From contig OY987250.1 of assembly GCA_963920765.1 (NCBI GenBank), positions 8,184,001 through 8,248,000 on the forward strand: a DNA stretch of 64,000 nucleotides. Direction: 5' to 3'. The DNA comes from Ulota crispa. Its lineage: Eukaryota; Streptophyta; Bryopsida; Orthotrichales; Orthotrichaceae. Under the pieces are notes generated by a model. The model ran no database searches, was not told where the DNA came from, and worked only from the letters and a program-made list of their open reading frames with translations. Below are positions 4,323 through 60,295 of the stretch, piece after piece; the stretch's first letter is position 1, and each line of letters starts with the position of its first letter. Made by a program: the position numbers and the translations under genes.

Positions 4323-4326
4323 TTAA

Positions 4327-5061
4327 CCCCTGAGTGTCGTCGCTCAAGATTTCACCGGGCGCTTTGGGGGACTGGATCTAATTTTTGACTTTCCTATAAA
4401 GTGCAATTCTAGATATTCAAGTGGTCCATGCAAGTGGAGTAATAGCCACTCAAGTCAAATGTTGTACAAGTACCTAGGGAGTCTTGATTGCATGGAACAC
4501 CATATGTGGCAAGGTGGCAAGGAGCATCTTACAGGCTACAACCGGTCAATATCCCTTGCAAGCTTCCTTGCTATGTGTTTTATGGTAGTAAGGAATTCAT
4601 TGGCAAGGGTTCAAACATGTTCTAGACCCTTGTCAAGGTAATCCTCACCAACTTTGCTTGTCATTGTTTTCAGTGCCATTGCAATTTGAAGCCCTTGAAC
4701 ATAGCACTCAAAGAAGTGCAATCTTCAATCATTTGCAAGTGTGTGCATTCACATCTAATCTTGCTACCCACGGAATTTGAGATGAATCAAGGGCTTATAG
4801 AATTTTGTAATAATCAATAAATAGCAATTACCTGCCAAAAAATGAGATTTTGCCATCACGTGTTGTTTGATCAAGTGTTATTATCTCCCATCTCCCAAGG
4901 TCAAATGTTCCTAGAATTTGCAAGCCATTTTCCAAGTAGGTGTTCCATTGTTTGCAATGGTCACTTTTTGTGGATCATCTGATTGATTGAGATATGATGC
5001 ATCAAAATTGTAGGTCTCCCAAAACCCTCATTTGGGTGAAAATGGCCTGGGCGCTCACAGG
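4327..5061. mobile_element. TTAA-bounded inverted-repeat element, copy 1 (about 735 bp)
   Basis: TTAA at 4323-4326 is followed by CCCCTGAGTGTCGTCGCTC. The other end reads GGCCTGGGCGCTCACAGG and then TTAA at 5062-5065. The C-run start, the G-run end and the TTAA borders are what piggyBac-type elements leave. A related, longer copy in reverse order begins at 39395. The 60-codon frame at 4459-4641 inside it is not recognised as a gene. Confidence 0.65.
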
Positions 5062-5065
5062 TTAA

Positions 5066-7076
5066 GAGCTAAACTTTCAAATTCTTGAAAAATAAATGAA
5101 TGCAAATTATCCCTATTCATACAATAAACCTAATTTTTTCATCCCTCTCAGATAATTATTGATAAATATCTTGTGTTGGTTTTCTAACACACATTTGGCC
5201 TTCATAAAAGGTAATTTCTCTAGAGTAAAGAAACTATAACATATAGACATATAATAAATAAAAGTAAAATGGACATATCTTAAAAAATGACATTTACAGG
5301 TATTACAACAAAATGGAACATAACATTTTGTGTTTTATATGGTTTGAAAGTAGAACCAAATGATTGTTTGTCAAGTGCTTGATTGCCTGTTTAGAAGCAT
5401 CTTCTTGATTGAAACCAACATTGAGATATAATCAGTGCTATTGCATGAACTTGCCAATGTAATTATAGTGATGCTTGGATAAGGTCGATACCCAGGACAA
5501 GAGAAAAACGTCCACCATATTCAAGTAGTCACAGCAAACAAACACTCCATTTAACCTAGCTCAAAACATAAATAAAAGTGGAATTTGCACACTATCCAAA
5601 CATTTCTCTTACAAATATTAATCGTATCCAAGTATCATTGTAGTGTACAATATTAGTCGGCAATTGAAAGCAATAGCTACTAGTAGATAGTGCCTACAAG
5701 TGCAATAATGGTCTATAATAATTGTGACATTTGTAATTACTACATTTACAGAAATATACAATCATGGAGGTGTTTCAATATTAAATATATGAAATATAGA
5801 GGGTAATACCTAAAATTTAACAAATAGCACTCTAAAGGTCATTTTCAATCTAAGAAATTAGAGAGTAAAAAATCACAATATTTAGGGTGATATTACATTA
5901 AAATAAAAGGCAACATGTAACAATGTCCAACTAAATTTATGGTATAGATCTCCAATAGAAAATTGTGCTAATATTAATATTCCAAAAAGTACAAGTGTAT
6001 TCTATCCCAAATCTAACCATTTTTTCAAACTTTGGTTTTTCAAAATAATTTTACTAGAAATATATGATAAAAATAGAAAAAATCACCATATTTGATGTTT
6101 GATGCTCTACTGTAGACAAAAATAATTAGATTTTTTTGTAAATTACTTTTTTTGAATCCATGATCAACTAATGAATGAACATTCAAGTTGTTGGCTTCAA
6201 ATCTAATTAGCATGTATTCTTGAGGGAAATGGTACATGCAATCATAAAAACATTTTCTATGGTAACAACCTAAAACTTTTATTGAAAAGTCATCCAATTT
6301 TTGTTCTTTTGAAATGTGTTTTATAACATGTTTTCATAGTTTTTGGAATTTGGACTACTCCCTTATTTCTCAAGGAATCAAATGCAGAATTTTTATTTGA
6401 GAAACAAAAAATGCATAATTTGCTATAAGTAGAATGACAGGTTGCACAATAGTTGTAAAAATGAACATTTTAATTTGATTACATATTTTTTTGTAAATCT
6501 CTTCATGTTTAACCATGATTGACATGATAATTCAATGTAATTGGAAGGATGCAAATGTGTTGCCTACAGTTCTACACTCTAATTCCTTAACCACTAAGAG
6601 TGTCAAGTAGAAATAGAAGGGAGGATGTAGATTTGGAGCTTTGATGTGAAGTAAGTTTGGAATGAAAATTCTTAAACAAGAAATCTTTATTTTTCAAGAT
6701 TTTTGTTTTTTTCAATTGCAACATGAATTGATTCATAACCTTGTACAAAAATCATTATGCATTTAGTATTTGAACAATCTATATGAATAATACACAAAAG
6801 CAACTCTTATGACATTTGGATGAATGAATATTGATCAACCTAACAATGATTACAAATTGGCAAATTTATTGTGATGTTGGACAATGACATGTTATGCATT
6901 AAAGATTATGAACTTGATTGATTCTAGGCTGAGAATGTCTGTTGTTTGTTTTCATTGGTGAAGTGACACACCCTTGAATCCGTGCACGTAGGAAATAATT
7001 GAATATGATTGTCTACATGTGTACGTTCATCCACAAAATATACTATAAGGTCATTTACTAAATGTACTATACGTTT
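5066..7076. other. AT-rich intergenic DNA, nothing recognised
   Basis: The 85-codon minus-strand frame at 6040-6297 has the composition of its surroundings and no recognisable motif. Confidence 0.55.
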
Positions 7077-7568: not shown

Positions 7569-7597
7569 TACTATACATTCATTGACAAAACGTACTA

Positions 7598-8019
7598 GGG
7601 AATTGATGTATGTACCACTCCTTTTTTTGGTATTCTACCACACCCACTATACATGGTCAACATTTACAATATTAAAGTAAGTATGGATTATGAGAAAAAC
7701 ATCAATAATTTGAAAATATTATTTGACATAGAAGTTGCAATTTTAAATTATGTTTTTCAGCTCTAGACTCTACTCATAATATCAATTAAAAAATCTAAAT
7801 TATGCTTATTTTTTATTTAGATTTTTATAATTGATACTTTGAGTAGGATTTGGAGCTAAAAAAACCATATCAAATTGTTGTAACTTCTTTGTCAAATTAT
7901 ATTTTCAAATTAGTGATGTTTTGTTCTTGATCCACACCTACTTTAATATTATAAATATTAAACATATTTAGTAGGTGTGGTAGAATAGTTGAAAAGGAAT
8001 GATACATATATCAATTCCT
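7598..8019. mobile_element. Mutator-like foldback MITE with 9-bp target duplication (422 bp)
   Basis: AACGTACTA is duplicated at 7589-7597 and 8020-8028. The ends are GGGAATTGATGTATGTACC and the complement of AGGAATTGATATATGTATC. The arms also contain the pairing block tctaccacacccacta / tagtaggtgtggtaga. It directly borders the 24-bp minisatellite. Confidence 0.85.
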
Positions 8020-8028
8020 AACGTACTA

Positions 8029-15104: not shown

Positions 15105-15530
15105 GCCCCCCCACCCCTTATCCCCATGCCCCCTATCCCTGTGCCCCCTATCCCTGTGTCCCCTATCCTCGTGCCCCCTATCCCTGTGCCCCCTATCCCC
15201 GTGCCCCCTATCCTTGTGCCCCCTATCCCTGTGCCCCCTATCCCCGTGCCCCCTATCCTTGTGCCCCCTATCCTTGTGCCCCCTATCCCTGTGCCCCCTA
15301 TCCCCGTGCCCCCTATTCCTGTGCCCCCTATCCCCGTGCCCCCTATCCCTGTGCCCCCTATCCCCGTGCCCCCTATCCCCGTGCCCCCTATCCCTGTGCC
15401 CCCTATCCCCGTGCCCCCTATCCCTGTGCCCCCTATCCCTGTGCCCCCTATCCCTGTGCCCCCTATCCCCATGCCCCTATCTTTGTGCCCTTGTCCTTGT
15501 GCCCCTTGTCCCTGTGCCCTCTTTTGGCTG
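15105..15530. repeat. 15-bp minisatellite, about 25 copies
   Basis: The unit ccccctatccctgtg has C/T variation at two positions (ccctgtg, cccccgtg, ccttgtg). It lies inside a dispersed repeat that continues to about 15690 and has a relative at 52955-53280. The three forward and one reverse frames stay open because 15 is divisible by three. The encoded PPIPV, CPLSL or APYPC repeats are by-products. Confidence 0.93.
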
Positions 15531-18936: not shown

Positions 18937-18960
18937 TTAACCCCTAAACGCCCAAGGAGG
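18937..18960. mobile_element. Single TTAA element end
   Basis: TTAA followed by CCCCTAAACGCCCAAGG matches the left end of the TTAA-bounded family. No matching right end was found within the next kilobase. It abuts the end of a foldback at 18474-18930. Confidence 0.5.
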
Positions 18961-20218
18961 TAAGTGCAAAACATAGGTGCATTATAAAATGATACTTTTG
19001 TAATTTTGATGAAGTTTGCTTCTAAAGAGAAAACAAGAATCATGATGTTTAGTAGTTATCCATATAGCCAAACATTCAAAAAAGGTTTTGGATTCTTATT
19101 TAATGAATTCAAAAGCATTTACCATTTAGTATTCATCAAAATTACAAATTTTATTCATGGAATTCAAAATTTGGTATGATTGGTTAAAAATTGACATTCT
19201 ATTCTAAAAGTAAAAAATGTTTTCTTTTTGGAAAAGAAAACATTATTAGTTTCCTGAAATAATAAACATTATAACACTAGCAAATATTGAAGTGTTTGTC
19301 TTTGAAAAATTCTCCTTGACAAAATTTAACTTGGATGCACATGATTCAAATTGGGTTGGAAAGTAAACTTGATTTTCTATATGAAGATATTTTTTATTTT
19401 TTCAAAAAATGTATTTTTTCATCTCGGGCAGCCCAGAAAAAGGGCAGCGACCAAAAATTGGTCGATTGGGCATTTGGAAGTGCACATGACTATAACTTTA
19501 CGTGTTGCACACATTCTCATTAATATTCTTACCATCAAACCAGATAGAATTCCCACATATCAAGAATAAAGCATCTAAACACCCCATGTAATAGTTACAA
19601 GGATTGAAGTGTACAAGCATGACGCTGAATAAACAACATTTTCAAAATCAGTATGTACCCCTTACTTCAAAATTTAAGATTCCAAACATTGACTTGCTTG
19701 AAATTTGTATAACAAATAATTCAGTTTTTAGAAATTTTCAAGACATACACCTAAAATGAACATAATTGTATTCCAAACCTTCAACGAAAGCTTTGAAGAA
19801 AATTCTAGTGGACCTTACAGGAAAATTACTGCTGAGAATGATAACATGAATGCACTTTGGGGTGACAGGGCTCAAGTTACGTTATCTTTGCATTAAAGAG
19901 TTTCAAGATTATATTAACATGGACAAAAAAAATCTCATGTAGAATACATATATATAGGAATCAAGTTAGGGGTACAATTAGAAGGTGCTGTAAGAAGAAC
20001 CAGAGGACCCTGCAGTTGATATTGCTTTCAAAAAGAAAAGTGTTAATCGAAGTTCTCTGAACCACTTTGCTTCTAATGGTTAGTATTCTGAAGTAATCTT
20101 AAACAATGACATTAGCGGAGGCTTTGCATGAATAGAAGCAGAAGGCAAAAAACTGGTAGAAAGCTTCATGCAAAACAAAAGAAATATTTACAATATTTCA
20201 TTACTTGAGTCTATAGCG
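18961..20218. other. Intergenic DNA downstream of TML
   Basis: No gene is recognised. The last few hundred bases probably include TML transcription termination. Confidence 0.5.
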
Positions 20219-28076: not shown

Positions 28077-28493
28077 GGAAATTGATATGTGCACACCCGG
28101 CGTTTGATATATGCACATTGGGGGTAAATATTAGATATTTGTCATTAGCAAGTTGAATTTGGAAATTTGAATTCAGATTTGGATTCAAAGATATCGATTT
28201 TGTCTAGAACTGCAAAGGATGTTATAGTTGAACAATGCCTAATGGAAAAACTAGTTAGAAAAATAATTATTACTTTTACCTTTGTTTATAAAAAAAGGCT
28301 AAGTTTTTTCATTGGGCATTGTTCAATTGTAACCTCCTTTATGGTTCTAAACTAAATCAAGATCTCTAAATCCAAATTTGAATTCAAATTTTCCAAATTC
28401 AACTTGTTGATGGTAAATATTAAAAATTTACCCCAGGATTTTGCTCATGCTAAACCCCAAGTGTGCATACATCAATTCTCTTTATAATTTACA
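28077..28493. mobile_element. Foldback MITE related to 7598-8019 and 44051-44573
   Basis: The inverted ends are GAAATTGATATGTGCACACC and GTGTGCATACATCAATTCTC. The interior shares the block gaattcagatttgg...gattttgtctagaac with 44051-44573. No clear target duplication was found. Confidence 0.65.
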
Positions 28494-34390: not shown

Positions 34391-37300
34391 TACCTTAGAT
34401 CTTGACACAAACAAAAAATCAGAATAGCAAAGCTTACAGTGCAATGAGAAGTACGCCGCGCTGCAGAGTAGCAAAATGTACAACATTACACAAGCCGAAT
34501 GGCGAACCCCTGCTGCACCTGTGCCATACTGGGAGATACCAGGAGGAGGAGGAGAATTCGTGGTGGTACTGTTTTTGCCTGTTGTTGGTGTCCCTGCAAC
34601 GCAAGCAACAATCTCTGAGTCCCATAGCTGCAGGTAAGGTAGGAGGCTTATATTCCAGTCAGGCTCTAAAACCATCTGCCTTCTCAAATGTACTTCATTT
34701 GTACATGTTATTTTTCATAGTCTTCAACAATGTACTTCATTTATACCTGTTATTTTTCATAGTCTTCAACAATGTACAATAAGTGTACAATTTGAAGAGG
34801 TGAACGGTTTTAAAGCCCTATACCACTTCAACTTCAAAATTTTGTAACTAATTCCACAAAATTCCAAAAAATACAAAACAACTTGGGTTAGATGCCAATT
34901 TCTCTTGTCTTTCAAGAAAATTTACTGAATAACATTTCAAGAAGTTTCACCTCCCTAGAAAAAAGTTTCAGCCCTTAGTTGGTCGGTTTATGAGCCTCCT
35001 ACTTCAGTCCTAACAAATACACATAGCAAGGAAATAAGGGAAGCTAGTGTGTACCTGCAGGACAGAATGTGACGGCATAATTCGCATCTTTGCAAGTGAA
35101 AGTGCTGGTGGCGTCGTCGTATGCGTAGCTGTACGCTGTCGGGCATGCGGCCTTGAACGCATTCGAGTATTCAGTGGGAGGACACGTGGCAGGTGACCCG
35201 TATGTCCCTGTACAGCAATACTGCGGTGTAGCAAACTCATCGCATGCACTCTTGCAACCGATCACTGTGCCTCCTGAAAGTACCTGCACTTCACATTGCA
35301 ACTTATCCACCGTTAGGAGACGACAAATCTCATAAAAGTCCCAAACTCTAGAGTACAGGCTCAATTCAATATAGAAATCAAAATAGAATCACAAGTATTG
35401 ATGGTATATCAGAAATTCTGCTCTAGAGCATCGGCACCCTTGGATGCAAAACATGCCCTCAGTAGCACTTGTTGTGGCCGCTTTCCTGGGTGAGCTTTAT
35501 TGTAGACGTATGCATCTGTCTTATGAAATTCATGGCTTGTCCAATTGTAGCTCAAACATTAGAACGTTCAAGGTTTGATGAATTTTTAGTACGTCCAAAT
35601 CCTACACAATCAAAATTTGTTGATTGGTTGACACAAGAGGTCCACCAGTGAAGCTCAACACTTTCCTCTGCAATACTATCCTCTATAATAAGCTCTCAAT
35701 GCTTGCTTGTATGTGCTTGATAGGAGATTTGAGCAAGCCCGTGATTATGGATGCAATTTGAACACATGTTTTTAAGTGCTCCAAGTTGCATGCCAGGGTG
35801 CGGATGCTCTTAGTACCAGTGCCAGCATAGCCACAGTGAATGACAAGCATTTCAAAAAAAACCTTGAAAAAGCTAAAGGATTCAAACATGAAGTAAAGTA
35901 GGAGGTCCATAAACCAACCATTGAAACCTACCTAACTCATCACTGACACTAATAGAAGTTAGGAGCACCCATAAACGTCAAACTATGGGTTTTGACCATG
36001 ATGACTATTAATAAACAACTAGCAAATTATAGGACCCTATTAGGAACAGAAAAAAAATAAGTTTGCACTTTTGAATGTATTATTTGGATACTCTGAGAAT
36101 AAGTTGTGAATTTTTAAAGAGCAAACTGCCATTGCACCCATAACCACTTTTAAGATTTCATGTTCACATGCTGTACATCCATGTCATTACATCTATTTAC
36201 TTCCAAAAATTTTCCAAGATTTCAGAGGTGACGATTATGGGGACACTGACGCTTATAGGTGTTCCTACCTGATATCTGAAAGAACATGTCACTTGTTCTC
36301 AGACTGCAAACGCAATTAGAACCTGAGCGGTTTTTGAGCCACCTACCTTAGTGGTTGAGACTAGAAACCTCGTCAGAGACAACACCGTTCAGCTATGGTG
36401 AATCGAGAAAGTTTGTAGAGAAGAGATATGATGCAGTGGAAATCAAATGTGTAAATACCTGAAGGGCGCTGGGGCAATTGCTGTTCAAATTGCTGGTACA
36501 TCCAGGCGTACCGCATGTTCCAGTTCCACCAGATGGCGTCATGGCAATGGGCAGATTGTAGCCGTCGACGAGGCTAATGTCGTAGAAATCGTCTCCATTG
36601 GCGCCGTCGAGGGTGATTTCCGCCAGGGTGGCAGGAATGGCGCCACCAGCGCCATTGCAGGTGAGTACGCCCCCGCAATCACCGGTCAAGCACGTCCCCT
36701 TCCCGGAGCTATCGAAATTGCACCCTGATGATTACTGTAACCAGATTAACTTTGATCCACAGTCCAGGGGGGTTTTTGTAGCTTAACCGGCCAATATTCT
36801 AGGGTCAATTGGTTGTGTAGAGTATACTCCTAACTAAGATCATCTCTTGCCATCCGTCAAATGAGCTTTTTGCGTTTCACCCGTAACGATTTTTGTAATT
36901 TGAGTCTTTCCAACAGCACTGTACTTGTCAATGTTCAAGAGCAGGGCCGTTCATGTGAGATTCAAAGTTTCTCTAGGCCCTCTTCACAGTCCTTGCCAAG
37001 TATTGTTCAATGTAATTCATTGTAATACAAGTGCAGGCCTTGAAATCCTCTAGACTACATGGGTTCTTGCCTGTTGTGCTACTTGCTGCTTTTGTTCCAC
37101 TCCAAACCTAGTTTCCAGAGGCTTCATTTGGCGGGTGGCAGGACATGCTCTACGCATATAGAAATAAAGAATATTCTCTTTTTTTCCTCTTAAATGTTCA
37201 GTTTTTTTCCTAAACTTTTGAAATCAGTTTGGCAATTCTCAAAATCAACCAGCTAGCTTGTAACTAAATGCAAGTACTCCCCGTATATTGCATTGATCTA

Positions 37301-39394: not shown

Positions 39395-40625
39395 TTAATC
39401 CCTGAGTGCCCATGCCATTTTCACCAAAATTAGGGTTTTGGGAGACCTACAACTTTGATGTACTGTATCTATGTCAATTGGATGATTCACAAAAAGTGAC
39501 CACTAGAAATAGTGGAATACCTCCCGGGGTGGCAAATCCTGTCTAATGCGTAGGGAGGACCATTTTGAGAAAGGGTAAAATGAGCTTTGTACTTCAAATT
39601 TAAGAAATTATTATAACTTCAAAAGAGCTTATAATAAATCTTTTATAGGTAATAATGAAGTTTTAACACTAGGATTCTTAGAATTTTTTTTAGAAGAGTA
39701 TTTAAGAAATAATAATTTTTAATAATTTCAAAAATGAGCTGGAGGGTCTGTGTGGTGCTACTTGTTTGAGAAATTCTTTGTACTATAAGTTCTTAAAATA
39801 ACTTTTGAGAACCTAAAACTTTTATAATTAGTATAAAAATGATACCATTAGAATCCCCTCAATGTCTTCTTTCTTACTATGTTCTTATAACCTACTTAAT
39901 AAATCAATTTGTTCCCTTCTTGTACATTAGAAGGGTTAAGAAAGCCTCTATCTTTGTATTGTGAGTTGCCACCCTGGGGAAGACCTACTTAGAAAGTGGC
40001 TTGCAAATTTTGGGAATAATTGACATGGGAGATGGGAGATTATAACATTTGATCAAACAACATGTGATGGCAAAATCTCATTTATTACTAGGTAGTTGCT
40101 ACTTGATAATTTTTACAAATTTCTATAAGCTTTTGATTCATCTTAAATTTTGTGAGTAGCAAGATTAGATGTGAATGCACAATCTTGTAAGTTACTAAAG
40201 ATTGCCCTTCTCTTTATGTCCAGTTTTAGGGCTTCAAATTACTATTGCACGGAAAACAATGATTAGCACTGCCAATGATGGTTGTCATAAAAAGAGTCTA
40301 GAACATGCTTGAACCCTTGTCAACAACTTTCTTGCTACCACAAAGCAAACACAAGGAAGCTTGCAAACAATATTGACCGGTTGCAACCTATAAGACGTTG
40401 CTTGTCACCATGCCTTGTATGGTGTTTCACCCAATCAAATCTCTTGCAGCACTTGTACAATATTTGGCTTTCCTTGTCATTATTCCATGGGCATGGACAA
40501 CTTGAATGCCTTCATAATTATAGTTTATAGCAAGATCAAAAAATTATATCCAATGCCTCAAACAAGCCTTTGAAATCATGAGCAATAGGATCGCATCGCT
40601 AGGGAGCTCAAGGATTGAGCAATTA
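39395..40625. mobile_element. TTAA-type element related to copy 1, right end decayed
   Basis: It starts TTAATCCCTGAGTGCCCATGCC (first base 39395). Its sequence then follows the reverse complement of 4327-5061 in order (for example the tagggttttgggagacctac block, and gatcaaaaaattatatcca near 40535), with extra interior DNA. The far end near 40600-40625 keeps similarity to the copy 1 terminus but has no clear TTAA. Confidence 0.55.
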
Positions 40626-41728: not shown

Positions 41729-41892
41729 TTTCTACAGTTTTGATTGCTGGCTTTTCAGCAATCGTATGCACATTGTGATACTTGCAACAAACTCAGACTG
41801 GTAAGTAATTTCAATGTAAATTTCTTTTATAGAGATAACTGGATTTTGTTACTTCTAGGGTTTATTGCTTTTGAAAATTTCAATGCTCTTAA

Positions 41893-42800
41893 CCCCTAAA
41901 TCCCTAAGTGTCCCCTTGAGGGACAAATGGGATTTCACCTCAATTTTTGTCCTGATTTTTTGAAACATTTCTTGAAGATAGGAAAACACATTAGCTTTAG
42001 GGGAATCTAATTTTTATTCCAATCAATGCCCAAAAGCAAAAATTATGCCTAGATAAGCAAAAATTTATGCAAATTGGGCAGCAAAAAAAATTTACAAAAA
42101 CTTGAATTTTTTTATTTTTGTTTCTTTTGTCATAGGTTATAGTTTTTTCTACATCTGAAGCTTTGATCCATTCCATTTGGACTAGTTATGAGAAAGTTAT
42201 GGACAATCTTGTTTTTTGGGCACCTCAAGCATCTTCTTGAAAAAATAACTTATAAACTTCATTTTTGAATGCCAGTTTAACATATTTTCAAAAAAAATTG
42301 TTGGAAAGGGTGAAGTTTGCTTTCTAAAACAATCTCACCATGGGGCTTATTGAGTTTCAATTCCATTGCAAGGTTATTAACAATTTAAGTTTTTGTTCAA
42401 TCTCATGCCTTCTTCTACCTAATGTTTTTTTAAAGCATGAAAATTATGTATTTTTTGTTTTGATTTTTTTCCAAAGATTCTCAACTCAATGTCCCACCAT
42501 AAAAAAATAAAATTCAAAACTCTATGGTGCAAAAGTATTAAGTTAAAAAAGTTCAAAGTCAAATAGTCTGGTCATACAAGGTGCAAAACAATTTGTTTTT
42601 TACACTTTGAATGCAAATATCTTGCAATCTGTGCAGTCAAAGTTTTTGAATTTTTATTTCTGCATTCTTATACTAGTCTAGTACAAGATCCTACAGTTAG
42701 ATATGCAAAAAAACTAATTTTCAAAAAAAATTAGTCTTTGCAAAAGAAATGGCAATTTTGAGTGTCTTCTGACAAAATAATGGCCCCAAGGATTTAGGGG
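41893..42800. mobile_element. TTAA-bounded inverted-repeat element, copy 2 (908 bp)
   Basis: TTAA sits on both sides (41889-41892 and 42801-42804). The left end is CCCCTAAATCCCTAAGTG and the right end CCCCAAGGATTTAGGGG. The interior has no recognisable coding sequence. Confidence 0.75.
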
Positions 42801-42894
42801 TTAATCAAAGGCAAGTGTCCAAGAACTCTCTATCTTCTCAACTATAGATTGACCATCAGTGTTTGAATTCCATGTATGCAAAAATTGGTAGCAT

Positions 42895-43362
42895 TTAGGC
42901 CCTCTTTACACTAGAAGTGAGAAGTCATGAAAAATTCCAAATAGGTCATGGCTTCTCCTTGAAACGTCAATCTTTGGAGGTAACAGCTGTTGATTGTTAT
43001 GTCAACAGAAGGGGTCATGAAACTAAGTTTACTTTTTTAGCATGTTCCTTAAAAAAAATATTAAAAGAACAAAAATGATTTGTATTATGGATTTTGACCA
43101 AATAATCTCTAAAATTATATTCAAACCTAGCATTTTAGGAAGGCTTGGTCACAATTCCAAGAGACCCAAAAATTGTGCACTTTCATTGTCATGGAGGACA
43201 AAACTGTTGTCTACCTTATTTTTTCTTTTTCTTTTTTGTGTCCTTTGGAAAAAAAATTCCAACAAAAAATCACATTGCTTGGTCTTCTCAATTTCTATAG
43301 GTTTCATTAGCTGAAATTTTGCTCTCCATGGCTTCTCACCTCTAGTGTAAAGGGGGCCTAAA
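42895..43362. mobile_element. GGCCC-ended MITE (possibly hAT-like), about 470 bp
   Basis: The inverted ends are TTTAGGCCCTCTTTACACTAG and its near-complement CTAGTGTAAAGGGGGCCTAAA, followed inward by gaagtgagaagtcatg pairing with catggcttctcacctc. The target duplication is ambiguous. The 90-codon and 82-codon frames inside are not genes. Confidence 0.68.
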
Positions 43363-43593
43363 TTATTTTGAACGGCCCAATCAAGTTTTACAAACAAAGG
43401 AGCTCAATTATGTAGCTTTGACTAATAAAGGGGGATAAATCGCTTTCTATTATAATATAGATGAACATAAACATAAACGCACCAAAATTGTACATTTCTA
43501 GATGAGGCAAAAGGCACTTCCAAGTAGTTACCATTTGAAAGCCACATAGGGCAAAAAAGGGTCACATCCCCAAACTTGCCAAAGGTGGTTTAA

Positions 43594-43829
43594 CCCTTGA
43601 ACGACACGAAAGCCCTTTGCGACCGTATGTACAACCGTATGTACAACCGTATGTACAGACATATTTGAGCTGCTCTAAGGACTTTCCAAAAAATTTAATG
43701 CACCCACCATCATACAACCCTTCAATATTTATGATTGTAACACTAAATTTCCAACTAATTCAAACTTTTGAATATTAATTACAATCGTATTTGGTACAGT
43801 ATCTGCAGAGCCCAAGGGCCCTTCAGGGG
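43594..43829. mobile_element. TTAA-bounded inverted-repeat element, copy 3 (236 bp)
   Basis: TTAA lies at 43590-43593 and 43830-43833. The ends are CCCTTGAACGACACG and GGGCCCTTCAGGGG. Inside is a small tandem repeat of accgtatgtacaa (13 bp, three copies, about 43622-43658). Confidence 0.7.
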
Positions 43830-44050
43830 TTAAGCTTAGTGAAGTTTGTGAAACGGTCACTATGGAGTAATGGTCCAAGTGGTTATCCATTCAACATAAT
43901 AAGCCAACATGTTGATTTGATGTCACATTAGAAACCATATTTCTACCGAGTATTGGGAGAAATAACGTAATGTTCCCCACAAAAAATGTTGTGTATAAGC
44001 TAAGCTTATGTCATTTGCAACTTCTATTTTCAGTCATCATTAAATCATTA

Positions 44051-44573
44051 GGGGATTAATATGTCTACCACACCCTTTCATCTATTCTACCACACCCCAG
44101 GTATAAATTTTAGATTTCTACCATCAAATAGTCAAACTTAGAATTTGGAATTCAGATTTGGACTTAGAGACCTTGATTTTGTCTAGAACCATAAAAAAAG
44201 AGTTGTAATTGAGCAACACCCAATAAAAAAGCTTAGCTTGGAAAAAAGTATTACTTTTACTTTTGTTTATATAAAAAAGATAAGCTTTCTCAATGGGTGT
44301 TGTTCAATTACAACCTTTTTTAATGATTCTAATTAAATCACGGTCTCTTAAGTCCAAATCTGAGTTCCAAATTCTCAAATTCAGCTTTTTGATGGTAAAA
44401 ATCTAAAATTTACCCTTTTTTTTATGATTCCAAACTAAGTTGCGGTCTCTGAAGTCCAAATCTGAATTCCAAATTCTCAAATTCAGCTTTTCAATAGTAG
44501 AAATCTAAAATCTAAAATTTACCCAGGTGGGTGGTAGAATAGCTGAAAGGGTATAGTAGATATATCAATCCCG
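44051..44573. mobile_element. Mutator-like foldback MITE (523 bp)
   Basis: The flanking 9-mers AAATCATTA (44042-44050) and AAATCGTTA (44574-44582) differ at one base. The ends are GGGATTAATATGTCTACC and the complement of GGGATTGATATATCTACTA. One arm segment is present twice near the right end (ctgaattccaaattctcaaa type), so the copy has an internal duplication. Confidence 0.8.
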
Positions 44574-44599
44574 AAATCGTTATTGTAAGTTGCACTTGA

Positions 44600-44631
44600 T
44601 AACATATACCCTAAGGTCCTTTAGAGGTTAA
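44600..44631. mobile_element. Single TTAA element end
   Basis: The sequence aaggtcctttagagg followed by TTAA (44628-44631) resembles the right end of the TTAA-bounded family. No partner end was found nearby upstream. Confidence 0.4.
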
Positions 44632-44942
44632 AGCGCCAAGATTTCACATACACAAAATGTTAACATTTAAATTCTCATTACTCTAATCTGTATTCTCAAA
44701 ATAACGCAACCAACATTCTAAATACAAAGAACTTTTTCAATCGCAAAACAGCGTTGGCAATTCAATAGTTCGGGCAATATAGTATCATGAATCGGCTATC
44801 ACAAGAATAGCGAAGTATCCACGCTCCATACAAATATAGCAAAAGAAGGGTTATGATCGTATGATAAAAATACCATATCATAAAACATGTATCATACATA
44901 TAGGCACAAGTGCAGAGATACCACTAAAACATTTGTGCCACT

Positions 44943-47433
44943 CTAATTCACCTTCACAACGTCATCCTTGGTTTCTACCACAACCCCAGGTATTACTTCG
45001 CGGTGGTGAGCAATAGACTGATACATCACAGATCAGCCGACTAGATTTCTATTGTGAAATGATCTAAGCCCTCGGATGGCTCTTCGTCATCTTGATAGAG
45101 TTAACTCTTTTAACATGAGTCTGAATTGCAAGGAGAGGCAAAGTAGGAATAATACCGTACCTGCTTTCCAGGCAGACCCTTCTCTGAATTGTAGGTGAGA
45201 GCAGGAACAGGAAACGCAGACGAGGCTAACCCTGGATGTAAAATCCAAAGGTGCTGAAATCCACAGCATTTGAGGGGAGTAAAAAAAATGCCAGGTCATG
45301 CACAGACCCAAATTATTAAATTACAGAAGCAGACAGCCTCCTTCAAAGTGCACTCTCGAGCTGGCAAGCTGATATACTTCAGGACGTCAAGAGACACTCC
45401 AGCCATAGGCTTTTTCTCTCTTACCATACGACTCCTGGCTCCACTTCCACAAAAATATTGCAATCCAAAGAATGCTCACAGCAGTTTTATTGCTGCATTA
45501 GCACTGACCTATTTTCATCACCAGAACATGAGCAGTATCTGCTAGCTCTCTCCTTTTATGATGCTTTTAGGAATAACAGAAACAAATCCACCAGAGAAAC
45601 TTGGCGATAGGCATGTACAGTCTTTAATTTGGAACCTGAGAGGTGAGCAAATACCATTGCCTCATTTACCCACCAGGTTTCTCAAACTTTTGACCTATGA
45701 TCTGAGGCATTCTTCTTTGCAAATTCCTCTTCCGGAGATCTAAAGTATTGTGCAGCAGCAAGTTTTGTTCTTGGGAGTTTCGGATTGTTGTTTTTCTGTT
45801 TCACGCACAACAGAGATGAAACAAGATTAGGTCAATGGAAAAGGATGTCAAATGGGAAGTAAATAAAATAGGTAGTTGAGACTTCAGGGAACTACAGAAG
45901 ATTTCATGGTTTTTACAGACTCCTGATACTGCATGATCCCCCGACTGAACACATATCCTGCTAGCAAAAACTAACAGAACTCTGTGATACGTTATTTTCA
46001 ATCTATACAGCTCCAACTATTATATCACCAGCAGGCCAAACATGTAGACCAAAGTCATACAACATGCAAATTCCAGAGATGAATGAACAAGTTGCAGCCA
46101 TTCTTCAGCTAAAAGGAGCATTTCACGAACTTCTGGAGTACATTGAACTATAATAGTGCATGAACTATAATAGTGCAAGATACCATAAACCAACATACTT
46201 TTTGGCCACAAAATGCCAAATAGTAGTCGGCTTTGGGTGCTATCAACGTATTTTTGGCAAATGATAGTTTGAACCCGTTGTTGTAGCTTTTGTTCTAAGG
46301 CCTCCTTGCTTATAGTTACAAAGAGTTTTAACTTATTGAGGGGTGTTATGAATAACTTGTATGGTTGTCAGGTCTTTGTTGTTTTATGCTGTAATACCCT
46401 TCAATAAGTTGAAACTCCTTGTAATTATAAACACCTCAATGAATTGAAACTCTTTGTAACTATAAGAAGAGAAATCTTAGGGAAAGAGCTACGAAAACAG
46501 ATTTGAATTATCATTTGCCATAAATATGTTGATAGCACCCAAAATCAACCACTATTTGACATTTTGTGGCCAAATGTTTGTTGATTTATGGCGTCTTGCA
46601 CTGTAATACAGGACAGCAAGACAACAAGGAAATTATAGCTACAATGAGTACAGTACTTCCATTTAAGTAAAAAAAAAAAGAGGTAGGTAGAATTGTGGTA
46701 CCACTAGCTTTATCGTTAGTAGGTGGCCGTAAGACAACATGCATGGTGATCACGCATCCTGGAATTTCCCCCAGAATTACCCTGGAGTCGGCGAGCGTTT
46801 TGCTGTTCTCCAAGATTTTACCAGCATTTATCAGCTTCAAATCATTTATAGACTTGGGGCCATTTTGCTTTTCTGCACAGATGCACAGCTCGATTCTGTC
46901 AAATCCCATCATTATGGAGGAAACGAAATGCCCTAAGGTAGCGACACCCATAACCATCCCTGTACCCATACCCATCACCTCTAAAATCTTGGAAAATCAG
47001 TGGAAGCATATAGATGTAATTACAAGGATGTACAACATGTGAACATGAAATCTTAGTGTTAGTATTAGGTGCAATTGCAGTCGGCTCTTTAAAAAAAATT
47101 CACAACTTATTCTCACAGTATCCAAATAATACATTCGAAAGTGCAAACTCATCATTTTATCTCTTGCTAATAGGATCCTCTAATTTGCTAGATGTTTATT
47201 AATAATCATCATGTTCAAAACCCTTATTTTGACGGTTATGGGTGCTACTACCTTACCTCACTAAAACAATCATTTAAAATGACCGTCAACGCACCTTTTG
47301 GCCAATGGTTGAGAATACTCTCTTTGATGTTGGCCACTGTAGTTGCTGGCGCATACTTGTTAGGACCTATGTCTGTTCCGTCGTATAAACGGAACTTGAG
47401 CTCCACAGGCTCCTCCAACGACATCACAGACAT
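44943..47433 (-). CDS. MUB: Membrane-anchored ubiquitin-fold protein (MUB) homologue; 3' end uncertain
   Basis: Exons on the minus strand: 47295-47433, 46702-46872, then tentatively 45161-45231 and 44943-45017 (151 aa). The first two are firm: VELKFRLYDGTDIGPNKYAP, IKESILNHWPK, QNGPKSINDLKLINAGKILE and TMHVVLRPP are the ubiquitin-fold signature of plant MUB proteins. Known MUBs are about 118 aa and end in a CaaX box that is prenylated, placing them on the plasma membrane, where they recruit group VI E2 enzymes. Here the two downstream exons are phase-compatible with good GT/AG sites but encode no CaaX. Reading through the exon 2 donor instead gives a hydrophobic tail ending near 46586. Intron 1 is mostly a MITE, and the large intron 2 contains a foldback element. 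Confidence 0.82.
46155..46606. mobile_element. Foldback MITE in MUB intron 2, about 450 bp
   Basis: The left arm gtgcaagataccataaacc, tttttggccacaaaatgcca and gggtgctatcaacgta pairs with the right arm ending tggcgtcttgcac. The inner arms repeat tagttacaaagagtt / aactctttgtaacta. The target duplication is unclear. Confidence 0.75.
46936..47253. mobile_element. AGGTAG MITE (family 2), 318 bp, in MUB intron 1
   Basis: TA target duplication (46934-46935 and 47254-47255). The ends are AGGTAGCGACACCCATAACC and GGTTATGGGTGCTACTACCT. It makes up about three quarters of the 422-bp first intron of the MUB gene. Confidence 0.87.
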
Positions 47434-48957
47434 AATTTCTACACCACTGAAAGGTTTTGGAGAGAATTCACACTCCCAAGTCTGCTATAACCTACAAAAA
47501 TTCCTCTGATATCTTCTTCAAATATCGCCCCTAGTTTGACAACCACCTGCAAAAAAGGAAAAAATCGAAAATTTTCCACATCAGATTTCCAGCACAACAA
47601 TCCATTTATCAACCCAAAAAATCTAAGGAATTAGCAAGGGGAACAAAACTAGGTCAAAGAGATTATTCGAAAATTAGGATTCAAATATTGTGGCACCCAC
47701 TAGAAAAATCATCACCAACCAAAGTGAAAAAAAACACGTAAAATCAACAAAAACAACTGCGTCCAAATCAACAGCAACGCCACAAGCATCTCACGATCTA
47801 CTGTACAGAACAGACATATTTAAAGTACGAGTGGAAAGTAACATCCTTAGAAAAAATTTACATCCATCCGCAACCAACAAAAAAATTCATTTTGGCTCGG
47901 ATCCAAATTACGGTACCCCTAAAAAACCCACGACTCTGATTCTAATATCCAAAGGAAAGCCATGATATAAGATTCCAAAACCAACAGAAACCAAACAAAC
48001 AAAACAGAGAGCCGGGACACAATCACCCAAAATAAAAACCAGTGTAAGTAAATACTTCTCAAAAAAAAATGGTCAAACAGCCAAATAAGATAACCACGCC
48101 CCAATCCCTATAACAGATCTTACAAAGTAAACAACATCCAGTAGTAAAACTACACAAAATAAATCCACGAAATCAAAAAACAAACAACACTCGACTCGAT
48201 TCAAAATCGTAGATCCTAATCTAACGCAGGGCGTAGCACTCAAAAAAACCTCAAAATGGACACAACACCATAAAAAGAGCAACATACACGAACTGACCAC
48301 AACTAAAACACACATAACTTAACATCAAAGCCAAGCAACACAAGAGAGATCACACGAATAAGAAACATAAACCCAAAAAACGCTCAAATCGCTCAAATCT
48401 ATCTGCCCAGCCTAACGCCCCCGATCATAACCTCCACAGTAACATCAACCAACATCATACGAAACACACACGCTTCTCACCCTAAATTGCAAGCTCCTCC
48501 GGAGTCCAAAACAGCTGCTATTGCTATTGCTGCTTTCTCTGTTTCACCAGCAGCAGCTTCTCCACGTCCACTCCGCCATGAACACTCGCTCCTGCTACGC
48601 ACTCCACATGCTGCCCGTGTTGTGAAGCTTCAAAAATGGGAGTAAATCGATGCAAATGGGAGTAAATGGGAGCAAACCCTAGTGGGGATGGAACTTGGTG
48701 TGTAGGGCATCAAATTTTGTGAGATAAAAAGGAGAGTGATGAGGAGAGGGAGAGTGGAATGGTGAGATGTGAGGTGTGGGGATGGAGAGGGGGTCAGAAT
48801 GGAGAGGAGGGAGAGGGAGAGGGGGTGGCAGGGGAGGGAGGGTGGAGATCCGCCATGCCCTTCCCGGCGGAGCTTTGAATGAAAGAAGAAAGGAAGACGA
48901 GGATGACGGAGGAGGACTGGCAATGGTGAAATGGGAATAGTGGACTCAGGCTGGGCT
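47434..48957. other. MUB upstream region and purine/pyrimidine-biased DNA
   Basis: The first several hundred bases are probably MUB promoter and leader. 48640-48930 is strongly purine-rich on the plus strand. The minus-strand frames there reflect that bias. Confidence 0.4.
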
Positions 48958-49065
48958 TCGTAGAGTAGTTAGTAGAGTGGTCCATATAGTGGTGAGTAGA
49001 GTGGTTAGTAGAGTAGTTAGTAGAGTAGTTAGTAGAGTGGTCAGTGGAGTGGTTCACGTGTTGGC
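48958..49065. repeat. Short tandem repeat, agagtagttagt type
   Basis: About nine imperfect units of 11-12 bases (gttagtagagta / gtggttagtaga). They follow a purine-rich stretch at 48720-48930 (gggagagggagagggg type). Reading frames here are repeat products. Confidence 0.75.
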
Positions 49066-49255
49066 TGTTATTTGGTCGCCCGCCTTTGACTGGGTATGGG
49101 GACAAGTGCACACGTTTCCACAGCAGCCGGTACATGCACACTTGCACACTTGCTCACCATACTTTCATCTTTTCATACTATAAACTTGAGAGGCAGAAAA
49201 TAAGGAATTTTTTTCAAATCAGATGTTCATTCCAGTGTTTGGGGAGAAATGTTAA

Positions 49256-49888
49256 CCCCTAAATGCCTGAGGCCTTTTCTGGGGTTTTAGGACTTTGCTT
49301 CAAATTGAACAAAATGGCAACATTTTAATAAGCTGTATCAAGTTCTTTTGAATTGTAACCATACAAATTCAAACTAGATATGTTAAAGGTCACGCAAGAA
49401 AAAAAAACACAACAATATCACTAATGGATTGAAAGATTATAATGTTTGATCATGAGGGTGTTAAAACTACAAAAACGACTTGAAGCCTTTGAATTCTCTT
49501 TTCACATGTTGGATTTTAAAAAATAACCATCAAAAAAATATGAGGTTAAAGGAAATAACATACGTAACCCCAATCACTTTATAGCTTTTCAAAATCTTTT
49601 TTACAATTTTTCAAATGAAACTTTTATGTAAAATTTTCTCCAAGATCTTGTGTATTTGAGGCTCATTTCCAAGAGCTCTCAACACTAGAGAAAGTCAAGA
49701 CCCTTGCATGAAAGCTTGAATAAAAAAATCATAATTGATCATTTTCAAAATCAAATTGTTGATCCTAAAATTAGACATCACAAAGAATAAATCCAAAATG
49801 TAAAATACTAAAAATAGTAACTTAGTTAAGTTTATTGAACTTCAGAATATTGCAAACACCAAAATTGGGTGCCGCAAGCATTTAGGGA
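49256..49888. mobile_element. TTAA-bounded inverted-repeat element, copy 4 (633 bp)
   Basis: TTAA lies at 49252-49255 and 49889-49892. The left end is CCCCTAAATGCCTGAGGCC and the right end GCCGCAAGCATTTAGGGA. No coding sequence is seen inside. Confidence 0.72.
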
Positions 49889-50422
49889 TTAACTTCACTG
49901 GATAAAATCCGGTATTTCCCAATTTTGTTAGGATTTTCACTAATAGGCACCGGTTTTGTACTTCTAAATTTATACTATAAATACTATATTTAGGTTTTTA
50001 TGGAAAAATGAACTGGTTTTTCATCAAGTAGTTTGAGGTCGTAGCCGAGTTTTTGCAATTTCAACCGATTGCCACTACATTAACTGCCAGTTCTCCCCAA
50101 ACCTTGATTCATTCTACACCAAATAAGGTAACCGTATCCATACTTGAGCAGTCCCCAATACTGCACTCTACATTGAGGGTAGACACATCCATTCCTCACC
50201 CCTCCCCAAACCCGCACCCTAGATTTGAGGCTTTCATGACATAGCTTTGAACCCATAGTGGAGTAGTGAATGTCACTTGCACAAGCATGTCAGTTGCTAA
50301 GCTACTTTGGGATGGTTGGGATTGGGACCATCCAGTGCCACTATAGGAACATATCCAAGCAGTTTCAAGGTTAGTTTAGAATTGCTAATAGGGACCCTAT
50401 GAGCTCCAACTTTGCCCTTTAA

Positions 50423-51141
50423 CCTCTAAAGGACCAAAGTCCCCTCAAGGGACTTTTGGGATTTGGGGCATGTACTTATGGCTAGACTACTTTGTGTAAT
50501 TTTTTGAAACTTTTATGGGAGATGGGGAATTCAAAGATTTGTGTGGGCATCTAATTTTCACCTCATTTGGACATTTATTGAAGAAGTTAAAAATGAATTT
50601 ATGAGAATTTTAGTTCAGAGGATAGCCCAAAAACTTCTTTATAAATTGCATTTTTTTAAAATAAAATTTCAAGGTTAGTTCTTTAGACTTATGTATATGT
50701 GGGAAGCTTTGAATCATTCAATTCTAATTGATGAGATGAAAGTTATGAAAAGTTTTAGTTTGCGGATAGGTGTGGAGAATCTCAAAATAATGCCTACATG
50801 CAAACTAAAACTTCTCATAACTTTCATCTCATCAATTAGAATTGAATGATTCAAAGCTTCCCACATATACAAAAGTCTAAAGAATTAACCTCAAATTTTT
50901 ATTTTTAAAAAATGCACTTTTTAAAGAATTTTTTGGGCTGCCCGCCAAACTAAATTTCTCATAAACTCATTTTTAACTTCTTCAATAAATGTTGGAATGA
51001 GGAAAAAACTAGATGCGCACACAGATCTTTGAATTCCCCATCTCCCATAAAAGTTTCAAAAAATCACACAAAGTAGTTTAGCCATAGGTACGTGCCCGAA
51101 ATCCCATTTGTCTCCAAAAAGGGGGCTTGGTCCTTTAGGGG
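50423..51141. mobile_element. TTAA-bounded foldback element, near-perfect palindrome (719 bp)
   Basis: TTAA lies at 50419-50422 and 51142-51145. The left end is CCTCTAAAGGACCAAAG and the right end CTTGGTCCTTTAGGGG. Unlike its relatives, the whole element is an inverted repeat. The left arm (about 50423-50768) is matched by the right arm (about 50801-51141), for example gaagctttgaatcattcaat against its complement near 50848, with a short loop around 50770-50800. Transcription through it would give a hairpin with arms of about 340 bases. Confidence 0.82.
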
Positions 51142-51317
51142 TTAATATATCAAATATTCTACAATACTTTTTCCACAAAAATTTGCATCCCATGAAAGCT
51201 TGTTGAAAGGATAACCCTACATTTTTTTTTCTTGAATTTTCCAAGACCTTGAAGTACCCTAAACCCTTAAATGCTTGAGTATGGATATGGTTACCTTAGT
51301 GTGTTTAGGTTGCCTTA

Positions 51318-51990
51318 ACAATTAGGTTGCCTTACCTTTGGCAAATTTATCTCATGTCTCACCTTTGGCCACATGGAGGGGCATGCAACTCTCATTATGC
51401 TAATGTAATTTTGGTTCTGTGTAAAGTTCCAGCTTCCCTACTCTTGGACTTTGGCGCTTGTTGCTACGACCAACCTCTACTTGCTCCTCCGTTGTTTATC
51501 ACAATATTTATCAACAAAAGTTACCATAGTCTTGGTAAATATTCAAATAGTGTGAAATGCAAAGACATTGGTATGGGGCAACCTAAATGCACTATATGGT
51601 GTACAAATTTTTTTGCTCAGTACAAGTTGGAACTAGAATGTCAAATGTCAAATGCTAAACAGATAAAAAAAATTAAAAAAAACTTTTGTACACAAGCTAG
51701 TGCATTTAGGTTGCTCCATACTAATTTCTTGACATTTCACACTATTTCAACATTTGCCAAGACTATAGTAACCTTTCAAAAATTACTTTGATATAGTAAT
51801 TAATGGAGGAAATTAGTAGAGGTTGAAAGTAGCAACAAGCGCCAAAGTCATGGAGCAAGGAAGCCCAAACTTTAAACAAAATCAAGAATTACCATAACAT
51901 AAAGAGACCTACATGCCCCTCCAATGACCAAGGGTGAGTCATAAAGTAACTTTGCCAAGATAAGGCAACCTAATTCTTAAAGCAACTTAG
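51318..51990. mobile_element. Long foldback, about 670 bp
   Basis: Left arm landmarks (aattaggttgccttac, ggaggggcatgca, ggcgcttgttgctac) recur inverted on the right (gtagcaacaagcgcc, catgcccctcc, ataaggcaacctaatt). A second inner pair is caacctaaatgcactata / agtgcatttaggttg. The 154-codon frame at 51327-51791 is part of the repeat. Confidence 0.72.
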
Positions 51991-51999
51991 ATGCACTAT

Positions 52000-52954
52000 T
52001 TAATGTAGTAAACAAAATTCCAAAAACACGTCCATATTTTTGGAATGACTTAAGTGTATTTTAAATAAATTTTTATAGAATTAAACGAAGAAATGATTTT
52101 CATCCATAAGAAATACTTCATGCCGATATACATGACTTTACTACTTCAAAAATGAATTGCAGGTGACTTTACCGTTGAAGATTTTGTTTATAATTGTTTG
52201 CTTACGAAGTTCCAAAAAGAATCAGAAATTATTAAAACTAATTAAAGATAACAGAATTTTTTAGTTATCACCATCCATGAGAGTGTTCACTATTAGGGGA
52301 AAATTCCTGTTCATTTGTAGGGAAAGTTATGTTGCAAAATTTGGATTTAGAAAAACATTACTCAAGTCTTTTGCGTGGCTTTATGCATATTTGTCCATTG
52401 ATGCCAACTCCGACCAATGTCCCCCCCCCATTGGGTTTATATCATGTAATGCTTTATTCATACGCAAAATTGAGGAGATGGGCAAAGTCCACCAAGGAAG
52501 GCTTTTTCCGTACAATCCCATCTTAGTCAACATTATCCTGTAACAAAATCTATACCAATGACTTTTGTACTCCATGGAAAACAATTGACCACAACACGTT
52601 TGTAGAGTAGTCACTTGAGCTTGTTTTAAAATCACACTCGGGATCCATGGTCTGTGGCGGACACGAAGGTCTCACAGTTTGTCCATTATATCGGAACAGG
52701 GATCGGACCTCTGACCTTGAGTTAATCATCTAAAACCCAATCACTGATGGACACGTTGCAAGTCGATTTAATTTTTATGTGTAACGTCCAGCTTCGTTTT
52801 TCAGAAGTCCACGACTCCACGGGCCCCGACTGGCCCAGTACAAGGATTGTGCCGACCCGCATGCCGAGGCTGGGTGAAGATGCCCCAGCGAGAATGTGTA
52901 TTTTGGCAACCTGCAATTGTTGGTCTAGTATAACTTACTACTATACTGCCCGTT
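52000..52954. other. Intergenic DNA with a GC-rich patch at about 52780-52900
   Basis: The patch (gggccccgactggcccag, gccgacccgcatgccgag) is unlike its AT-rich neighbours and could be a gene or LTR fragment. No domain, tRNA or primer-binding site was recognised. Confidence 0.4.
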
Positions 52955-53280
52955 GTACCAATGGGATTATGCCCCTACCCCCTATCTGTGTGTTCCCCTC
53001 TTCTCGTGCTCCCCTATCCTCATGCCCCCATATACCCGTACCCTCTATCCATGTGCCCCCTATCCTTGTGTCCCCCTATCCCCGTGCCTTTTTTTGGCCA
53101 AGAGAAAGTTGTGGTGCAATTGCTAATGATGGTGCAACTGCTAGTGGCTTGTTAACGTTTAGATAAAAGAAAGTCATAGGTGATTTTACTTTAATCCATT
53201 TATAGCTTTCCTATCCTAGTCATCCCCGACCCTAATTGACTAACCATTGTATTCTATTTTTGATCCCAACCATGCTCAAT
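52955..53280. repeat. Second copy of the minisatellite-bearing dispersed repeat
   Basis: The order gggattatgcccc, degenerate cccctatccc-type repeats, gagaaagttgtggtgcaa, cataggtgattttacttta and ccatttata follows the region 15095-15690. Only about eight degenerate repeat units are present here, against about 25 there. Confidence 0.82.
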
Positions 53281-53376
53281 TCTAATTGCTTGACACTGTA
53301 ATTAATTATATATAGAGATGTATTGCAATTTATTTGCATTTTTTGATGTTTTGCGTCCTTTTCAGACTTTGTTTAA

Positions 53377-53770
53377 CCCCTAAATGCCCATGAGGACGTT
53401 TTTCGTCCTTTGGCCCTAAAAAAGCATTTTGTACAGCAAAAAAAAAGTCATTTTTCATCTGTTTTTTTTTTTTTTCCAAAGTGACTGTGAACACATGAAC
53501 CATTATAGAAGGCAAATAAAATTCTTATCGAGTATACTCATCTTTTTAGGTAGACCAATTTGTGAGAAAATTCAAAATCATGGTATTAGGTCCCAAGCTA
53601 TTACAATTTTCATGAGATCGGCATGCACTATTGACTTTTGAAACTTTTAGAAGCAATACTATTGGTGCCCATCAATGAAAATATTGTTGAAGCTATTGTA
53701 CAAACATTGTTGAAGCTACAATATGGGTACAATATGGGCAAGCCACATCCACCCACTAGACGTTTAAGGG
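53377..53770. mobile_element. TTAA-bounded element, copy 5, sharing a TTAA with copy 6
   Basis: TTAA lies at 53373-53376 and 53771-53774. The left end is CCCCTAAATGCCCATGAGG and the right end CACTAGACGTTTAAGGG. The right TTAA is also the left TTAA of the next element. Confidence 0.75.
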
Positions 53771-53774
53771 TTAA

Positions 53775-54015
53775 CCCCTAAACGCCCAAGCCATATTCAC
53801 TCAGATCCGTACCCTTGTGTACTTAGTTCAATAAAAGTATTACCTAAGTAGAGTCAAATAGCTTGAATTTTTTATGAGTGGTAGTAGACACATGCTTAGA
53901 GGTACATGAAAAAATACAAGTCCTTTGACTTTATCATTAAGAAGAGGATAAGAGTCAAACATGCACATTTTTCAAAACTAAGCTACCACTATGTGGTAGC
54001 TGGGGCGCTTAGGGG
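53775..54015. mobile_element. TTAA-bounded element, copy 6 (241 bp)
   Basis: It begins directly after the shared TTAA at 53771-53774 with CCCCTAAACGCCCAAGCC and ends GCTGGGGCGCTTAGGGG before TTAA at 54016-54019. It has no coding content. Confidence 0.78.
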
Positions 54016-54019
54016 TTAA

Positions 54020-59570: not shown

Positions 59571-60030
59571 CGTCTGGTGAATGCTTTCACACCGGGCACC
59601 AGACGTTTAGTGAAGGAGCGTTTTTATTTTTTTATTCTTAATTGACTTCATTTTGTCATTACCTCACATGCAGTGAGAGGGAGTGTTTTGTACAAAGGAC
59701 AAGATTTGACCCCACCTCCCAAGGTGACCTCAAATCTTCTCCACCACAAGTGAGCTCCTCTCAAATTTTGGAAGGAAAAAGGTGATGACATGGACTCATT
59801 CTCCACTGGACGTCCCTTTGGTGTGAATGCCATATTGGACAACACCTTGGGATTGACCAATGAGATTGCTTGCAGCTTTGTCCAATGGTTGTGGACATCT
59901 TGGTTTGAAACGAGCTTTAGGCCCGGTTCAAACTAGCTACCAGCCAAAAATGTCTCAAACGTGATTGGTTGATAAATTATGGCTTTTATCCGCTGCGGGG
60001 TTCATACTAACAGTTTGTCCGGTACTTTAA

Positions 60031-60259
60031 CTCCTAAAGGACAAAGCGTGCCGTTACGACTAGTAGAATAAGAAGTGTTTTTCTATTATTTGGAATAGAT
60101 TCACATCTTTATTGCATTTGAGATCAACAAAGAAGTTGGAGAATAGATCAAAACAGTTATAGTAGACTACTTGAGATCCCAATTGATTAAAACTTCTTAT
60201 TGGTAGCAAATGCCAATTACATGATAGTGTATATACTATGCCCTATCGTCCTTTAAGGG
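60031..60259. mobile_element. TTAA-bounded element, copy 7 (229 bp), nested in a GGCCC-ended element
   Basis: TTAA lies at 60027-60030 and 60260-60263. The ends are CTCCTAAAGGACAAAG and CTATCGTCCTTTAAGGG. It sits inside the larger inverted-repeat element 59919-61167. Confidence 0.72.
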
Positions 60260-60295
60260 TTAACATCCATGTTCACCAACCAATAAGGTAGTGTG

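Follow-up and report, generated by a model that had tools for sequence, protein, structure and literature searches.

TTAA-bounded mini-elements with piggyBac-type ends, and piggyBac transposase genes, in the plant Ulota crispa

Eight TTAA-bounded elements in a 64-kb window

The window analysed here is a 64-kb stretch of the Ulota crispa genome (C9:8184001-8248000, contig OY987250.1; assembly of 274.8 Mb in 157 contigs). It contains eight short elements with both ends located between TTAA motifs, E1 to E8, which together span ~4.2 kb or 6.5% of the window. They are very probably non-autonomous members of the piggyBac superfamily, resembling miniature inverted-repeat transposable elements (MITEs), in a plant nuclear genome. 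A preliminary description made from the sequence alone had proposed at least eight such elements, together with single ends and a decayed copy at 39395, and all of these were found. The elements carry 5'-CCC...GGG-3' ends with short inverted repeats, in which the letters next to TTAA are CCCCT or near variants. Variant ends, some of which differ by one base, include CCTGT at the right of E1, TCCCT at the right of E4, CCTCT at the left of E5 and CTCCT at the left of E8.

The elements were aligned by BLAST, with 200-bp flanks, against sampled DNA, and their coordinates include the bounding TTAA. The sample for the survey of ends comprises 264 kb, namely the window and 20 stretches of 10 kb (16 picked for an end and 4 adjoining the window), whereas the sample of transposase-coding copies comprises 16 loci (72 kb in all). 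The sampled stretches carry the labels L001-L048.

E1 (4323..5066, plus strand) is a 744-bp non-autonomous element with left end TTAACCCCTGAGTG and a worn right end TTAACCTGTGAGCG; its relatives at L026 3010-3516 and L027 5640-6031 extend to its right TTAA. The decayed copy (39395..40583, minus strand) is akin to E1, with matching parts at 39395-39522 (81% identity over 128 bp) and 39978-40583 (77% over 608 bp) that are separated by ~455 bp. The single end at 18937 heads an element of ~540 bp (18937..19477, plus strand; right limit approximate) that has lost its right TTAA and is 81-83% identical to TTAA-starting copies in L018, L022 and L026. A single right end, TTAACCTCTAAAGGACC, is located at 44620..44631 on the minus strand.

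The remaining elements are MITEs on the plus strand. E2 (41889..42804, 916 bp) has a perfect 15-bp terminal inverted repeat including TTAA and matches 39 other places in the genome at 88-91% identity, nearly all spanning its positions 1-916 to within a few bases (best 40 of 3,205 candidates scored). E3 (43590..43833, 244 bp; ends CCCTTGAACGAC and CCCCTGAAGGGC) is 76% identical to L014 3487-3726, starting at its left TTAA. The alignments of E4 (49252..49892, 641 bp) with L017 3803-4464 at 75% and of E8 (60027..60263, 237 bp) with L027 3851-4084 at 80% both run from TTAA to TTAA. E5 (50419..51145, 727 bp) forms a palindrome over almost its whole length, the 314-bp arms being 89% identical, and it aligns in both orientations with relatives at L025 7233-7972 and L028 2946-3641; if transcribed, such long-hairpin MITEs might yield hairpin RNA. 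E6 (53373..53774, 402 bp) and E7 (53771..54019, 249 bp) have one TTAA in common, at the right of E6 and the left of E7. Relatives of E6 were found for its interior only (68-74%), while E7 has no BLAST match within the sampled DNA; an element of equal size with similar ends lies at L028 9401-9649.

The interiors, earlier called unrelated, belong to separate repeat families, but for six of the eight elements (E1-E5 and E8) the alignment of a sampled relative begins or ends at the element TTAA, and full TTAA-to-TTAA copies of E2, E4, E5 and E8 are present in the sample. Because the sampled copies of window elements are mostly 75-91% identical, most look old. Outside the window, L020 holds two 893-bp copies (4375-5267 and 7757-8653) that are 98% identical, lie in opposite orientation and are both worn at the far end. 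Their outer ends (4375 and 8653) had been considered as those of one 4.3-kb element, a candidate rejected in favour of the two copies. Gene conversion or duplication, instead of recent transposition, possibly accounts for this pair.

Copy number of the ends and duplication of TTAA

The terminal motif TTAACCCCTAAA occurs 15 times in the window when at most one mismatch is allowed, compared with 0.57 expected, and none of 100 shuffles attained this count. The whole-genome search for the ends that the preliminary description had advised returned 30,972 exact copies of this 12-mer versus 77 of the reversed control pattern, and 3,038 exact copies of the 20-mer TTAACCCCTAAAGGACCAAG versus 0 in the control. 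The 264-kb sample contains 95 ends (at most one mismatch) and one control match. The commonest letters are TTAA-CCCC-TAAA, and the ends become variable further in. As seven of the 15 motifs in the window are exact, scaling by this ratio (15:7) suggests a rough total, derived from one window, of ~33,000 elements. With a mean length of ~520 bp, as in the window, these would take up ~17 Mb (6% of the genome), an equally rough figure from one window.

Elements also occur back to back. The junction of E6 and E7 (window 53766-53782), with its common TTAA, is of the type TTTAGGGGTTAACCCCTAAA with one mismatch, and this junction is found exactly at 335 places genome-wide, compared with ~146 for random TTAA insertion. 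The excess is modest, and uneven element density could be a sufficient cause.

Insertion into, and duplication of, TTAA was assessed by comparing filled and empty sites. Flanks were joined for 96 candidate pairs of ends (many are not true partners) and searched against the sampled DNA, and TTAA was scored in the exact aligned columns of each empty-copy row. Five filled sites have unbroken paralogous copies. At three of these five, the two TTAA motifs of the filled site are matched by a single intact one in one or more empty copies, namely at the E5 site of the window (2/5 empty rows), at L011:6919-7849 (10/21 rows, which are not independent places given a palindromic family and overlap between some loci) and at L022:5623-6167 (1/2 rows). 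No empty copy carrying two TTAA motifs at the site was seen among the aligned rows of the five sites.

Transposase genes, their element ends and other features of the window

The genome encodes piggyBac transposases. The PF13843 (DDE_Tnp_1_7) profile gave 120 genome matches, all above the cut-off, with a best E-value of 1.3e-73 (116 of 528 candidates scored). At least one stop is held by 110 of the 120 rows, and the other ten, at eight places, are stop-free. The L044 copy matches the solved piggyBac transposase 6x67 (phmmer, E 1.9e-19) and piggyBat 9c0f, and PF13843 is the sole Pfam match of L044 and L039 at E 0.001. The catalytic residues of piggyBac are given as D268, D346 and D447 in an excerpt of PMC7351741; this D-D-D is kept in nine of the 16 sampled domains and not in seven, the third position of L044 being N. 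Pairwise identity among the 16 domains ranges from 28 to 81%, resulting in 11 groups above 60%. Stop-free PF13843 frames of 563 amino acids (C1:1180709-1181995) and 472 amino acids (C8:19570986-19572215) have low profile scores; they may be transposase genes that are active or tamed.

One coding element of the TTAA-CCCYT type was located with both its ends: the 5,026-bp element of L038 (C10), which runs from TTCACCCCTCATTGCCGA to TTAACCCTTCATTGCCGA. An inward-facing TTAACCC or TTAACCG end lies 1.36-1.94 kb past the domain in eight of the 16 coding copies, and six of these eight right ends are CCCYT, whereas no outward-facing TTAACCC/G end was found in the 72 kb of these copies. TTAACC followed by A or T occurs in the coding loci in both senses and was left out of this count. 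Given 15 occurrences of TTAACCCYT in the 64-kb window and 102 in the 264 kb, 72 kb of ordinary DNA should contain ~8 or 14 per sense; six inward and none opposite were observed, a one-sided pattern that suggests ends belonging to the elements themselves. Ends of the L038 type are present at 227 places genome-wide (0 in the control) and those of the L044 type at 947 (at most one mismatch; 1 in the control). Among the 100 L038-type places listed, at least four pairs are spaced 0.96-0.98 kb, and a 981-bp element with such ends lies at L028 5376-6356. With flanks of ~1.5 kb (more for L044), a search for CCCCTAAA ends around 15 coding copies gave one match with two mismatches, in L040, and no matching TTAA inverted repeat was found around the 16 copies. 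The empty result for L038 is explained by its left end, which is located 2.5 kb upstream of its domain.

The end type of the window elements themselves, CCCCTAAAGG, is found exactly at the right end of L031 (C7), which reads TTAACCCCTAAAGGCCCAAG and lies 1,940 bp past the domain. No TTAACCC/G left end occurs between the L031 domain and this right end. The L031 DNA that was read stops short of the left end. When 40 of 1,655 candidates were scored for the last 440 bp of L031, 39 other places matched at 75-78%, and the matches mostly extend 590-760 bp from the end. With the preceding 1,500 bp as query, 14 of 40 rows start at 1349-1350, five at 1287 and two at 1218-1219, and one weaker row spans 837-1365. 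The last 592 bp clearly match nine of 11 MITEs, beyond 30 shuffles (L014 is marginal and L028 shows no match). Compared with the MITE remainders, the L031 DNA upstream of this common tail is shuffle-like for ten of the 11, L011 being slightly above the null, and the tail therefore does not look like the end of a complete MITE beside a gene. Such a pattern would arise if the MITEs were derived from an L031-like element by internal deletion.

Besides the elements, the window contains exons of a thaumatin-like protein gene (35044-36731, minus strand). In a scan of nine window frames, three showed family matches well over the cut-offs: thaumatin for two of them and ubiquitin-like Rad60-SLD_2 for the third. 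Among proteins of solved structure, one thaumatin exon comes closest to thaumatin-like proteins, zeamatin, NP24 and osmotin, which are plant proteins, in keeping with a plant host. Two tandem arrays at 7077-7582 (24 bp x 21) and 15114-15519 (15 bp x 27) are open in several frames, with nothing else to suggest genes. A second palindromic repeat family is present at 44104-44514 and 28122-28433 of the window and at L042 3593-3989 and L032 78-411; in the copies read, the start lies close to TACCACACCC or to a comparable string, and CCC/TTAA ends are absent.

Proposed mechanism, rival explanations and known systems

Direct observation covers the ends and their number in the genome, the duplication of TTAA, the transposase genes and one coding element with both ends of this type. 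In the mechanism that we propose for them, longer elements, of which the one measured is 5.0 kb, would supply a piggyBac transposase that binds TTAA-CCCYT-type ends, excises the mini-elements and joins them into a new TTAA, which would be duplicated. From established piggyBac biology we infer the cut-and-paste chemistry and the mobilisation of the mini-elements in trans, as well as the use of L031-like transposases by the CCCCTAAAGG families.

The piggyBac assignment, already favoured in the preliminary description, gains support from the ends, the empty sites and the DDE_Tnp_1_7 transposases of the genome. Several observations weigh against it. The change from one TTAA to two is confined to three of the five sites: both empty rows at L022:8293-9213 read TCAA and the single row at L028:8158-9068 reads TAAA (TTAA in 0/2 and 0/1 rows), and even at the L011 site 11 of the 21 rows lack TTAA, two of them being gapped and most others reading TAAA in A/T runs. 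The piggyBac profile detected no transposase in the window and L001-L028 (best E 0.035). Among the coding copies, the left TTAA of L038 reads TTCA, two of the eight right ends are not CCCYT (CCCTA in L036, CCGCT in L040), and the examined DNA of the other eight copies contains no TTAACCC/G right end. The 981-bp element in L028 has only ~29 bp in common with L038, and the L031 tail is the one link in the sample between the inside of a MITE and a coding copy. That tail could be a 5'-truncated MITE beside the gene. In a permissive alignment, moreover, ten of the 11 MITEs matched the L031 3' flank near full length and in one orientation, which by itself would speak for a complete MITE next to the gene; the null of this alignment was small (182-189, one element only) in AT-rich DNA, and the strict repeat did not bear it out.

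Related doubts underlie the possibility that the CCCCTAAAGG mini-elements are served by another or undescribed TTAA-using transposase and resemble the piggyBac coding ends by convergence. No coding element with an exact CCCCTAAAGG end on both sides was obtained among the 16 sampled copies, 15 of which show a different right end or none, so that the transposase with matching ends sought by the preliminary description was recovered in part: DDE_Tnp_1_7 genes do have TTAA-CCC ends where ends were found, but the exact CCCCTAAAGG type is limited to one right side (L031/L048). The exact right end of L031 with its repeated tail, the shuffle-like DNA above this tail and the prevalence of CCCYT among the coding ends make convergence improbable. 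The preliminary description had also named other TTAA-preferring families as an alternative. Sola3 is TTAA-associated, and Kolobok, to which the THAP domain is tied, is the sole such superfamily that was compared. A genome search for the THAP domain gave 0 matches, but as 0/14 controls were detected, it shows little. Kolobok elements likewise duplicate TTAA, but their termini are 5'-RR and YY-3', with purines at the 5' side, the opposite of the CCC...GGG seen here (excerpt of PMC9587614). This misfit, together with the many piggyBac transposases in the genome, one of which is inside an element with a window-like end type, leaves a Kolobok origin very improbable. The plant telomere repeat is CCCTAAA. 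Since TTAACCCCTAAA includes a string resembling it and E5 is palindromic, one might consider that there are no elements at all, and that the pattern comes from inverted repeats formed by chance or from a motif of palindromic or telomere-like kind; the shuffles, the reversed controls and the boundary-exact copies argue against this, the empty sites refute it, and we give it practically no weight.

The piggyBac reading of the window elements thereby remains preferred, and it concerns a kind that is already known: piggyBac MITEs, here in a plant, at high copy number and with mostly broken transposases. The superfamily is familiar from animals, and the earlier statement that it is hardly reported from plants needs to be narrowed, as piggyBac in plants is in print. 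According to excerpts of the respective papers, piggyBac is among the superfamilies present in all groups studied, land plants included (PMC4438587, Table 2), the C-fern has 1,230 annotated piggyBac fragments that make up 0.00% of the assembly (PMC6890710), and piggyBac-like elements occur in plants (PMC8086355). An abundant native population in a plant was not reported among the open-access literature matches listed, which does not establish its absence from print. A broader claim, that piggyBac became a leading class of DNA transposons in this plant lineage, with some 30,000 mini-elements, several percent of the genome, about a dozen divergent transposase lineages supplying them and at least one unbroken frame that may be active or tamed, is tentative, and we would sooner doubt it than expect it to hold. 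A large and diverse plant population would offer plant-adapted ends and transposases for comparison and a case for testing descent versus horizontal transfer into plants. Plant repeat libraries may leave such TTAA MITEs unclassified.

Small size, the lack of coding capacity and duplication of TTAA are features of animal piggyBac-related MITEs, and the elements described here are alike in these general respects. With the known systems of the piggyBac superfamily (Trichoplusia ni piggyBac/IFP2, piggyBat, PF13843) they share the TTAA duplication, the CCC...GGG ends and the short inverted repeats, and the genome shares with them the PF13843 DDD transposase, with its phmmer matches to 6x67 and 9c0f. 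They differ from these systems in their plant host, in length (2,472 bp for IFP2 in an excerpt of PMC10803768 versus 5.0 kb for the one coding element measured here) and in diversity and number, with 11 transposase groups among 16 copies and tens of thousands of ends.

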